This document shows positions 52,802 to 56,543 of a DNA stretch of 64,000 bases, in pieces. The DNA is taken from assembly GCA_012518185.1 (NCBI GenBank), contig JAAYTA010000063.1:1-64000 (forward strand). Reading direction: 5' to 3'. This stretch comes from Methanobacteriota archaeon (GTDB lineage: Archaea > Thermoplasmatota > Thermoplasmata > Methanomassiliicoccales > Methanomassiliicoccaceae). Made by a program: the position numbers and the translations under genes. The notes below the pieces were generated by a model. The model was not told the DNA's origin and did not search any database. It saw nothing but the letters and a program-made list of their open reading frames with translations. Every line of letters begins with the position of its first letter. Within the stretch, counting starts at the first letter, position 1.

Positions 52802-52832
52802 AAAAAAGGAGAGTGGCAGATATTAAATCTGC
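52802..52832 (-). terminator. Candidate intrinsic terminator of the aminotransferase-serA operon
   Basis: Minus strand: GCAGAT-TTAAT-ATCTGC, then CACTCTCCTTTTTTATT; overlaps the serA stop. Confidence 0.65.
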
Positions 52833-54436
52833 AAATAATCTCGTTCGTCCAGATTGGATAGTTGGACTGTCCGAATCTCCTGAAACTCTCTGATAGATCG
52901 CATCTCCTTTACGATGTTTGCCTCTACTGGATTATCGACGGATATTAGAAGGAGGGCCTTTCCACCTTTCTGCTCCCTTCCAAGTCCCATTCGAGCAATA
53001 TTTACGCCCTTACTTCCAAGAAGTGTGCCAACTCGTCCCACTATACCTGGTACATCAGCATGAATCGACAACAGAAAATCTCCATCTAGAGGCATGTCTA
53101 GATCAAACCCATCAATTCCTAATAATCTTGGCTCGGTAGCAGGGAAAGCAGTACCACGGACTTCTCTCTCACCTTCTCCAGAGTGCAGGGATACAGAGAT
53201 CATGTTAACATATCGTTCTGATCCTTCTGACTTTACCTCTACAATCTGAATACCCTTCTCTCGCGCGATTGATTCAGCATTAATTATATTGGGATGCTCT
53301 CCAGACAAATTAGATAAAACTCCCATTAAAGCCGACACCGTCAGCATTCGTGTATCTACGTTGGCTAGGTCTCCAGAATAAGTTACCTGTATCTTGGCCA
53401 CTGGAGCATCAGTGAGCTGCACCGCAAAGGCTCCTAAGCGTTCTGCCACTGAGATAAATGGTAATACCTTAGGATCCATGCCCCTCACTGGAGCATTTAC
53501 CGCATTGGTAATTTTCTTATCAAGTAGGAACATCTTGACTGCTTCAGCCATTTCTACTGATACTTTCTCTTGAGCCTCCTTCGTGCTAGCACCAAGATGA
53601 GGCGTTAGTACAGCGTTACCTAGAGTCAAAAGTTTGGATCCAACGGGTGGTTCGCGCTCATACACATCTAGAGCAGCGCCTGCGATCTTCTTCCCAGATA
53701 GTGCATCATACAATGCATCCTCATCAATTAATTCACCTCTAGCTACATTTATAATTAGAGCATTAGGTTTCATTTTTGAGATGAGTTCTCTATTGATAAG
53801 GTGATGAGTGGCAGGAGTCAAGGCAGCATGTACTGTAATAATATCTGCTTCTTCTACTAGTTGCTCTAGAGAGACTAATCGTACTCCCATCTTTACTGCC
53901 GCTTGTTGAGGTATATATGGATCGTATCCGATAAGTTTCATCTGGAAGCTTTTGGCCCTCTTTGCTACTTCGCCTCCCACGCGGCCAAGTCCAATTATGC
54001 CGAGAGTTTTTCCATTCAGCTCTATTCCAGTAAACTTGGAACGCTTCCATTCACCTTTCTTCAAAGAGGCATCGGCCCATACAATATTACGAGCAAGGGA
54101 TAGCATCATGGCCATTGTGTGTTCAGCAGCCGAAATAATATTTGCTGAAGGAGTATTCATGACTAATATGCCGCGCCGAGTCGCTGCTTTAACATCTACA
54201 TTATCTACGCCTACGCCAGCCCTACCAACTACTTTTAGATTTTTTCCTGCCTCGATAACTTCAGCAGTTACTTTAGTCCCTGATCGGATTACTAATGCAT
54301 CGTAGTCGGCAAGAATAGTCAATAATTCATCATGAGGTATGCTGGGACGCACATCTACTTGCACTTGTCCGCCTTTACGGAGCATCTCTAAGCCCTCTTC
54401 GGATAGAGGATCCGTTACCAATAACTTATACATCAC
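52823..54436 (-). CDS. serA: D-3-phosphoglycerate dehydrogenase
   Basis: GRAGVGVDNVD, LGIIGLGRVGGEVAKRA, C-terminal ACT region. Confidence 0.95.
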   Translation of the reverse strand: MMYKLLVTDPLSEEGLEMLRKGGQVQVDVRPSIPHDELLTILADYDALVIRSGTKVTAEVIEAGKNLKVVGRAGVGVDNVDVKAATRRGILVMNTPSANIISAAEHTMAMMLSLARNIVWADASLKKGEWKRSKFTGIELNGKTLGIIGLGRVGGEVAKRAKSFQMKLIGYDPYIPQQAAVKMGVRLVSLEQLVEEADIITVHAALTPATHHLINRELISKMKPNALIINVARGELIDEDALYDALSGKKIAGAALDVYEREPPVGSKLLTLGNAVLTPHLGASTKEAQEKVSVEMAEAVKMFLLDKKITNAVNAPVRGMDPKVLPFISVAERLGAFAVQLTDAPVAKIQVTYSGDLANVDTRMLTVSALMGVLSNLSGEHPNIINAESIAREKGIQIVEVKSEGSERYVNMISVSLHSGEGEREVRGTAFPATEPRLLGIDGFDLDMPLDGDFLLSIHADVPGIVGRVGTLLGSKGVNIARMGLGREQKGGKALLLISVDNPVEANIVKEMRSIREFQEIRTVQLSNLDERDYLQI

Positions 54437-55500
54437 ATCGTCTCCAAAACTTCATCCATGGCCTCCAGTAGACCTTTGATTTCATCCACTGTAAGATCAC
54501 CCATATGCCCGATCCTAAAGGTACGCTCCTTAATAGTACCATAACCATTGGATATCTCGAACCCCTTTTCTTTTAACCCTGTATTAAATTTAGAAAAGTC
54601 AAGATCTTTGCGATTAATTACAGTGATTGTATCAGAATAAAAGCCGGGCTCAGCGAAAAGACCTAACCGTTTGCTAGCCCAGGATCGGACTAGATCTCCC
54701 ATCTCGCGATGCCTTCTATATCGCGCCTGTATTCCTTCCTCAAGAATCCGATCTAACTGGAAATCAAGTGCAAATAATAATGAAACTGGAGGAGTGGTTA
54801 ATGAATAATATTTATCTGCCATCTTTTTCATTTTGAGCAGATCGAAATAATAACCTCTATCGGGTACCTCACTCGCTTTATCTAACAGGCGATCTGATAG
54901 GAGCATAATACCAATCCCGGGGGGAAGAGCTAAGGCCTTCTGAGTCCCGAATACTAGAGCATCGATATCAAGATCTTTTATCTCCATATCAGTTCCATAC
55001 ACTGAAGTAACACCATCAACGAAAATTAACGGATCATATTCCTCTCTGACTGCCTCTGCAATACTTTTAATAGGATTTAGGACGCCAGTGCTGGATTCAT
55101 TGGCTACAACTGTTATAGCTTCCACTGAATCATCTAAGCTTGAATTTAGATCTCCTGGCTTAAGGGCCTTACCCCATTCACGGCAGACTTTCACGACCTG
55201 CTTTCCGTTTTCTTCACCTATACTCTGCCAGCGCTCGCCAAAAGATCCATTGGATAATCCTAACATCTTATCTTTTACACCATTGCGGACGCATGCTTCT
55301 AGTAATCCAGATGCTGAAGAAGGTGAGATGATTATATGCATATCTGTATCAAGAGTTTCGCGCAATTTCTCTACGATATCTCTCTGCAGCTGTTCATATT
55401 CTTTACTTCGATGAGTTATCATCGGATGGGTCATGGCATCGAGTACTTCCTTTCGGACCTCGACCGGACCTACGGTAAACAATGTGCGTTTCATAGACAT
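54433..55500 (-). CDS. Class V aminotransferase (serine-pyruvate/alanine-glyoxylate type)
   Basis: TVGPVEVRKEVLDAM; FVDGVTSVYGTDM; VFGTQKALALPPGIG; 4-nt overlap with serA. Second possible start at 55494. Confidence 0.92.
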   Translation of the reverse strand: MSMKRTLFTVGPVEVRKEVLDAMTHPMITHRSKEYEQLQRDIVEKLRETLDTDMHIIISPSSASGLLEACVRNGVKDKMLGLSNGSFGERWQSIGEENGKQVVKVCREWGKALKPGDLNSSLDDSVEAITVVANESSTGVLNPIKSIAEAVREEYDPLIFVDGVTSVYGTDMEIKDLDIDALVFGTQKALALPPGIGIMLLSDRLLDKASEVPDRGYYFDLLKMKKMADKYYSLTTPPVSLLFALDFQLDRILEEGIQARYRRHREMGDLVRSWASKRLGLFAEPGFYSDTITVINRKDLDFSKFNTGLKEKGFEISNGYGTIKERTFRIGHMGDLTVDEIKGLLEAMDEVLETM

Positions 55501-55672
55501 CCTCCAAGTGCTCTCTAAGGCCGCTCAGGCCCGGAGGTTGGAGGATGTCCAAAGACGTCCTCCATATCCACTTCCTAATCCATAAGCGACGTAATCCATG
55601 CATAGCATATGGCCTGCCCCGAGGCGGAATAAAAAAACCGGTGTGGTGGGCTTTGTAGAATCCAGCATGGTA
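55494..55672 (-). promoter_or_regulatory. Structured 5' leader of the serine operon with three-segment translational switch candidate
   Basis: 12-bp perfect inverted repeat 55496-55507/55538-55549 covering SD and ATG; alternative partner at 55554-55563; U7 tract at 55631-55637. Confidence 0.55.
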
Positions 55673-55694
55673 TTTCACGGTAACATGGAGTTCT

Positions 55695-55724
55695 GAATAT
55701 AAATCTTACTATGTTAGCATAGTA
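55695..55724 (-). promoter_or_regulatory. Serine-operon promoter: TATA box plus adjacent palindrome
   Basis: Minus strand TACTATG-CTAA-CATAGTA followed by AGATTTATATTC; 7-bp perfect arms 55707-55713/55718-55724. Confidence 0.5.
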
Positions 55725-55824: not shown

Positions 55825-56154
55825 TCACTGAATATTACTCAAGTCCTCGAGCACCTTGCGATCTCGCTCAATGGCCTCGCTGATGCTTTCAACAGGTATT
55901 GACTCTATACCAAATATCGCTGATAATGGAAGGCCCGTGAGAATTTCATCTAATTCTTCCCCCGACGATACTGTGAAAATGAATGCTGCAGATCTCTGTC
56001 CTCCGAAGAATCCTCCTCGAACTATTCCTTCAGATTCCATTTCTTTCAACCGCTCCATACTAGGTATAACTAATCTTTCGAGTATGTTTCGATTTTCTTC
56101 AGCTGTTTCTCCTATGCCCTCATCAGAGAGTTTCATCATTACTAAGAACTCCAT
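55825..56154 (-). CDS. Small alpha/beta barrel-like protein (YciI / muconolactone-isomerase-like), paralog 1
   Basis: Alignable with 56190..56543; AGGAGA upstream of ATG at 56154. Confidence 0.6.
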   Translation of the reverse strand: MEFLVMMKLSDEGIGETAEENRNILERLVIPSMERLKEMESEGIVRGGFFGGQRSAAFIFTVSSGEELDEILTGLPLSAIFGIESIPVESISEAIERDRKVLEDLSNIQ

Positions 56155-56189
56155 ATTATCTTCTCCTGTATTGTACTGATATGTTAAAG

Positions 56190-56543
56190 TCATCTGGGGA
56201 CATTTATTCCAGCTGCCTTCCTGACATCTTCCACAATTCGCCGATTATGCTCTAGTGTTGAATTTATTGATTGCAGAGGTGCGATCTCAATATCATATAC
56301 GTTCATAATTGGAATAGATGCTAGGATCTTATCTAACTCCATTTCATCCTCAACACTGAAAATAAACATCCCACTAGTTTGTCCAACAAAAAATCCGCCA
56401 GTGACTTTACCATCATTCTCCATACGTTTCATCATATCCAGGGATGGGATCATTTGGTCGACTATCATGAAGGCCGCCTCTTCTGATGAACCGCTATATG
56501 ATTCTTCACGGAGCTTGATAATCACTAAGTATCTATTAGACAT
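56190..56543 (-). CDS. Small alpha/beta barrel-like protein, paralog 2
   Basis: Alignable with 55825..56154 (IPSxxxxKxMExxGxVxGGFFxGQxSxxFIF). Confidence 0.6.
   Translation of the reverse strand: MSNRYLVIIKLREESYSGSSEEAAFMIVDQMIPSLDMMKRMENDGKVTGGFFVGQTSGMFIFSVEDEMELDKILASIPIMNVYDIEIAPLQSINSTLEHNRRIVEDVRKAAGINVPR

Follow-up and report, generated by a model that had tools for sequence, protein, structure and literature searches.

The leader of the serine operon in the window (the whole 64,000-nucleotide stretch analysed here) is probably a ribosome-mediated leader-peptide attenuator that acts on translation. It contains three short segments on the minus strand: A, the antisequester arm (TGGAGGACGTC, 55554..55564), which pairs with B; B, the anti-SD (GACATCCTCCAA, 55538..55549), which can pair with either A or C; and C (TTGGAGGATGTC, 55496..55507; with the Shine-Dalgarno (SD) sequence, TTGGAGGATGTCT, 55495..55507), which pairs with B. 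The original prediction described these segments as a three-segment RNA switch. Judged from the sequence comparisons below, that switch is the 3' half of a conserved leader ORF that had been overlooked. The same leader architecture precedes the aminotransferase-serA operon in 26 genomes of the Methanomassiliicoccales belonging to five families, namely 13 of the 14 genomes of the window's own family that have the gene and members of four other families. The leader is absent from the largest family (f5) and from much of another (f6).

The serine operon and its translation start

The first gene of the operon encodes a class V aminotransferase (PF00266; 54433..55494, minus strand), and the second, serA (52823..54436, minus strand), encodes a D-3-phosphoglycerate dehydrogenase with an ACT domain. 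The aminotransferase stop and the serA start overlap. serA is identified by a score of 652 bits to TIGR01327, whose cut-off is 454. The aminotransferase scored below every NCBIfam cut-off and is probably a phosphoserine aminotransferase, a substrate suggested by its serA neighbour. Relatives keep the aminotransferase-serA order whether or not they have the leader, in every case where the locus extends to serA. A protein search identified Methanomassiliicoccus sp. UBA386 and UBA345, Methanomassiliicoccales archaeon RumEn M1 and archaeon DTU008 as relatives in the same genus. Directly upstream of the serine operon, on the same strand, lie two genes for small PF02426 (muconolactone isomerase-like) proteins (55825-56193 and 56190-56543), and the stop of one overlaps the start of the other.

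Sequence conservation indicates that the true start of the aminotransferase is the ATG at 55494, 6 nt past the SD. ATG, GTG and TTG interchange at this codon among the relatives and all of them have NTG, while one relative (L015) lacks the upstream ATG altogether. The ATG at 55500 was ruled out as the start because the downstream NTG is the conserved one. The original prediction had placed both the SD and the initiator ATGs inside the last segment. The SD does lie inside it and the start codon does not, so the helix formed by C takes in the SD and comes to an end immediately ahead of the start codon.

A conserved leader ORF close behind the promoter

A TATA-box-like promoter element, TTTATATT, is found at 55696..55703 on the minus strand. 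Across the 26 leaders the distance from the start of the TATA element to the first ATG of the upstream ORF (uORF) is 33-35 nt, with variant TATA boxes in L012, L013, L085 and L102. The usual archaeal distance from TATA box to start site puts the beginning of transcription a few nucleotides before the uORF ATG, and the predicted transcript is therefore nearly leaderless with respect to the uORF. Between the two lies a further conserved element, CTCCATGTTACCG (55678..55690, minus strand), which has the form TGATAC[C/A/G]G in relatives and occurs in most leaders, those of distant families included. It is possibly the start-site region, or a binding site for a transcription factor or other protein.

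The leader ORF itself (55525..55668, minus strand) consists of 47 codons followed by TGA, encodes MLDSTKPTTPVFLFRLGAGHMLCMDYVAYGLGSGYGGRLWTSSNLRA, and is open in 26 of 26 relatives. Its length ranges from 47 to 64 codons, all differences being multiples of three, and its stop codon (TGA in 24 leaders, TAA in L042 and TAG in L085) sits between the anti-SD and the SD. There are no internal stops in the reading frame of the uORF, against 53 and 22 in the other two frames. From these sequence features we infer that the leader ORF is translated. In the N-terminal half of the uORF, third codon positions are no more variable than first and second positions, which rules out an ordinary small protein and indicates that the peptide itself is not under ordinary protein selection. 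The leader upstream of A varies in length and cannot be aligned between families. In the predicted fold, the stop codon of the window's uORF lies in the loop of a small hairpin (GGCC-TGAGC-GGCC; 55519..55531, minus strand); by eye, similar hairpins of differing sequence are present at the uORF stop codon in several relatives.

Two mutually exclusive helices

On re-reading, the leader sequence and the three segments were as first described. The 12-bp perfect complementarity of B to C was recovered and extends to 14 bp in the predicted fold; the A:B hairpin, with its single C-A mismatch and 4-nt loop, comprises 11 positions. The best partner of the SD segment pairs with it at -22.0 kcal/mol, compared with -11.1 +/- 1.8 in dinucleotide shuffles, none of which did as well (0/2000). 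This is the strongest anti-SD among the window's 33 SD-bearing genes, the runner-up reaching -15.9. When genes were sampled from the genome of a relative, 4 of 159 had a partner at -19 or better, two of them reaching -21, so in that setting the energy alone would be no proof of function, whereas conservation is. The fold energy of the leader as a whole is unremarkable (z = -1.35), and the signal therefore resides in the specific helices, B:C being the more stable at -19.1 kcal/mol and A:B standing at -14.5.

Both helices are conserved. In an alignment of 24 sequences, 97.5% of the B:C cells are paired, compared with 49-60% when the arms are slid against each other. Double changes occupy 16 B:C cells against 5.5 +/- 2.9 in shuffled alignments (0/500), counted as cells and not as independent events. 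Columns 46-103, for example, form U-A in 13 of the sequences and C-G in the other 11. Compensatory substitutions in related genomes, whose absence would have counted against the switch as originally proposed, are thus present for B:C. The register of A:B differs by family, with GGACG/CGTCC in f1 and GCATC/GATGC in f3 and f6, and the helix nonetheless pairs in 24 of 24 sequences despite the change. For both helices, a sequence's own partner pairs better than partners taken from other families. Relative to synonymous recodings of the same peptide, the mean z is -1.7 to -1.9 for A:B and -2.0 for B:C, values that carry no formal P because the sequences are related and not independent. Pairing beyond the synonymous-codon expectation implies that it is selected at the RNA level on top of coding. 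An attenuator has two mutually exclusive helices that share one arm, and such a pair is found here; the conservation of both supports the proposal that together they would determine whether the serine operon's SD is accessible.

A run of glycine, serine and cysteine codons

Just before segment A lies a run in which glycine occupies every second codon and alternates with serine or cysteine. In the window it reads GGA TTA GGA AGT GGA TAT GGA GGA (GLGSGYGG; 55558..55581, minus strand), the weakest example of all and without cysteine; relatives typically have GSGSGCGG, and GSGCGSGWGG and SGSGSGSGSGG also occur. Where segment A is clear (24 leaders), glycine, serine and cysteine make up 82% of the eight codons before A compared with 24% earlier in the same ORFs, and 72 of the 96 codons (75%) between the run's glycine codons specify serine or cysteine. 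The serine codons of the run are drawn from both boxes (AGC 14, TCG 11, TCT 10, AGT 7, TCC 6, TCA 1), and this exchange between TCN and AGY indicates that the amino acid is conserved and not the base sequence. Since glycine and cysteine are both made from serine, the run names the products of the operon's own pathway. Codons for an operon's end products are expected of an attenuator, and in this case a Gly/Ser/Cys run precedes serA and the aminotransferase. The richness of the ORF in these codons suggests that the ribosome is probably the sensor.

The glycine codons of the run are strongly biased, with GGA accounting for 117 of 132 (89%), while genes of these loci use it for 19% of theirs. Bacterial attenuators characteristically have biased control codons, which has been explained by selective tRNA charging (PMC1183508). 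The bias in the run could also have an RNA-level cause.

Proposed mechanism

Transcription would begin a few nucleotides upstream of the uORF ATG (55668). A ribosome would then translate the 47-codon leader, the second half of which overlaps the switch. Just before and at A it would decode glycine, serine and, in most relatives, cysteine codons. We infer that the signal is the charging of the corresponding tRNAs. When charged tRNAs are scarce, the ribosome would linger in the first part of the run and leave A free, allowing the A:B hairpin to form as soon as it is transcribed and making B unavailable to C. The SD of the aminotransferase would then be open, and serA would follow through the stop-start overlap. 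When charged tRNAs are plentiful, the ribosome would move onto A and through B and destroy A:B, after which the more stable B:C would close the SD.

The position of the ribosome was modelled on the leader. With C not yet transcribed, A:B stays intact, with 7-9 pairs expected on average, when the A site of the ribosome is at codon -24 to -12; about 3 A:B pairs are left with the A site at codon -9 and none from -6 on. The threshold for the loss of A:B (codons -12 to -6) falls within the control run. Computation thus shows, within the limits of the model, that the position of the ribosome in the run decides whether A:B can form. Because the run spans this threshold, progress through the Gly/Ser/Cys codons would set the fold that C encounters. 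In equilibrium folding with a ribosome mask, the probability of an open SD is 0.06, rising to 0.16-0.29 with the ribosome over B (A site at +9 to +39). Since the SD is closed at equilibrium, switching on by starvation requires either a kinetically trapped A:B or fast initiation on the open SD; in the model, slow decoding leads to expression if A:B is kinetically trapped and not at equilibrium. Granted an attenuation mechanism, we consider it fairly likely that starvation turns the operon on, and this direction of the response is the least certain step of the scheme.

Alternative explanations

The most serious competitor has the opposite sign. B:C would close the SD by default, a ribosome reaching B or the uORF stop would open it, and a ribosome stalled in the Gly/Ser run would keep the operon off, so that the uORF serves as a translation-dependent gate. 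The greater stability of B:C and the equilibrium calculation, in which the SD opens only with a ribosome over B, both speak for such coupling. It would, however, switch off a biosynthetic operon at times when the cell is short of the products, and it gives no role either to A:B, which is conserved beyond the codon constraint, or to the codon run upstream of A; we regard it as unlikely. An arrest peptide would also act by placing a ribosome over B, in that a metabolite would cause the nascent chain (GSGxGCGGR.Q) to stall it there, as happens in leaders of the ErmCL type. Conservation is fair in the residues that follow the run (Q/R, then M/T/A, S/P), and a ribosome positioned at them would open the SD, but the order and identity of residues within the run vary (GSGSGC, GCGSGW, GSGSGSGS). 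The run keeps its composition and not its sequence, which is a mark of codon sensing, and nascent-chain arrest appears most improbable.

Other explanations would place the signal in the RNA. The original prediction of a ligand-responsive translational switch stands as far as exclusive helices over the SD are concerned; its ligand-binding RNA is not supported, given the lack of an Rfam match, the unalignable 5' part and the Gly/Ser/Cys-rich ORF. A riboswitch, with a metabolite that binds to the leader RNA and so determines which of A:B and B:C forms, would account for the helices and for SD sequestration. Yet the Rfam search gave nothing at the gathering threshold and chance-level matches at a relaxed one, and no conserved core exists beyond A, B and C. 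Between families the 5' part changes in both length and sequence, which is unlike an aptamer, and the conserved open frame and the TCN/AGY switching of serine codons would go unexplained. There is very little chance that the leader is such a riboswitch. Neither the specifier loop nor the bulge of a T-box was recognised, there being no Rfam match in the window's leader or in 16 related loci. The excess of GGA in the run over ordinary genes would also fit a signal in the GGA repeats (GGANNNGGANNNGGAGGA), for instance a two-tier G-quadruplex or a site to which a protein binds, in which case the ORF would be incidental. But three quarters of the NNN positions between the repeats encode serine or cysteine, with both serine codon boxes in use, and conservation extends to the frame, the start and the stop, which makes an incidental ORF scarcely credible.

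Comparison with known systems

In bacteria, attenuation of amino-acid operons through the ribosome is textbook material. Like the trp, his, leu and thr attenuators of bacteria, the serine leader has a leader ORF with control codons for the end products of the operon, and the position of the ribosome would pick between mutually exclusive helices; a biased choice among synonymous control codons is likewise shared (PMC1183508). In contrast to them, it is archaeal, has no homologous sequence and ends in SD sequestration with no terminator seen. It also combines the related amino acids glycine, serine and cysteine in one run, and its uORF crosses both alternative helices, whereas classical leaders stop before them. 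Attenuators of the ermC/ErmCL type similarly place a uORF ahead of a sequestered SD, which is freed when a stalled ribosome alters the pairing, but they sense a drug through the nascent chain, while the features here point to codon and tRNA sensing, and the three arms are arranged differently. In Bacillus subtilis, serine limitation is read at sinR as a slowing of ribosomes at serine codons (PMC3862929); sinR has neither leader peptide nor RNA switch, and the sensitive codons there are TCN, whereas the serine leader uses both boxes. In T-box leaders, tRNA charging also controls amino-acid operons at the mRNA leader, but T-box RNAs bind uncharged tRNA directly and no T-box element was found in the serine leader. 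Small ORFs upstream of longer genes are known from long archaeal 5'-UTRs in Haloferax (PMC4983044) and Methanosarcina (PMC11456600); the available portions of these reports list them with neither a codon run nor an RNA switch, and with no demonstrated regulatory role.

Distribution and significance

Among 400 genomes of the class, a covariance model of the leader finds one site per genome, before the aminotransferase, in the Methanomassiliicoccales only. The model gave a lone match beyond this order (G438, E = 9e-4); it falls within an ORF of 300 aa and was judged to be due to chance. No similar leader peptides were seen before trpE or hisG when the upstream sequences of the same family were read. 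The N-terminal domain of TrpE (anthranilate synthase) is absent from the window's genome and from four same-genus relatives (G000 and G001-G004), while other members of the Methanomassiliicoccaceae have anthranilate synthase; these five may be tryptophan auxotrophs. Just upstream of hisG, members of the Methanomassiliicoccaceae (L145-L159) have a conserved block, CATATGTTATTTATGGGGACAGGTTATCACC or CATAGGTTAATAATGAGGACGCGATATCAGC, possibly a promoter or operator for the histidine genes.

The Rfam amino-acid attenuator motifs in a comparative study of RNA regulators were only those for His, Leu, Thr and Trp, for which a gammaproteobacterial origin was suggested (PMC3766115). Searches of the open-access literature yielded archaeal uORFs and no archaeal amino-acid attenuator, an absence that is no proof of novelty. 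There is a reasonable likelihood that the serine leader is the first attenuator of the amino-acid leader-peptide type to be described from Archaea. Its near-leaderless uORF would sense the serine family as a whole (Ser, Gly, Cys and, in some species, Trp) through the progress of the ribosome, and would control how the serine operon is translated in methanogens of an entire order. If true, this conserved case would mean an independent origin of the principle in a domain whose machinery for transcription and translation is different, and would show attenuation operating on an mRNA that is nearly leaderless. It also allows a test of whether archaeal ribosomes trail RNA polymerase closely enough for such timing, and the leader would offer a ready-made sensor of serine and glycine.
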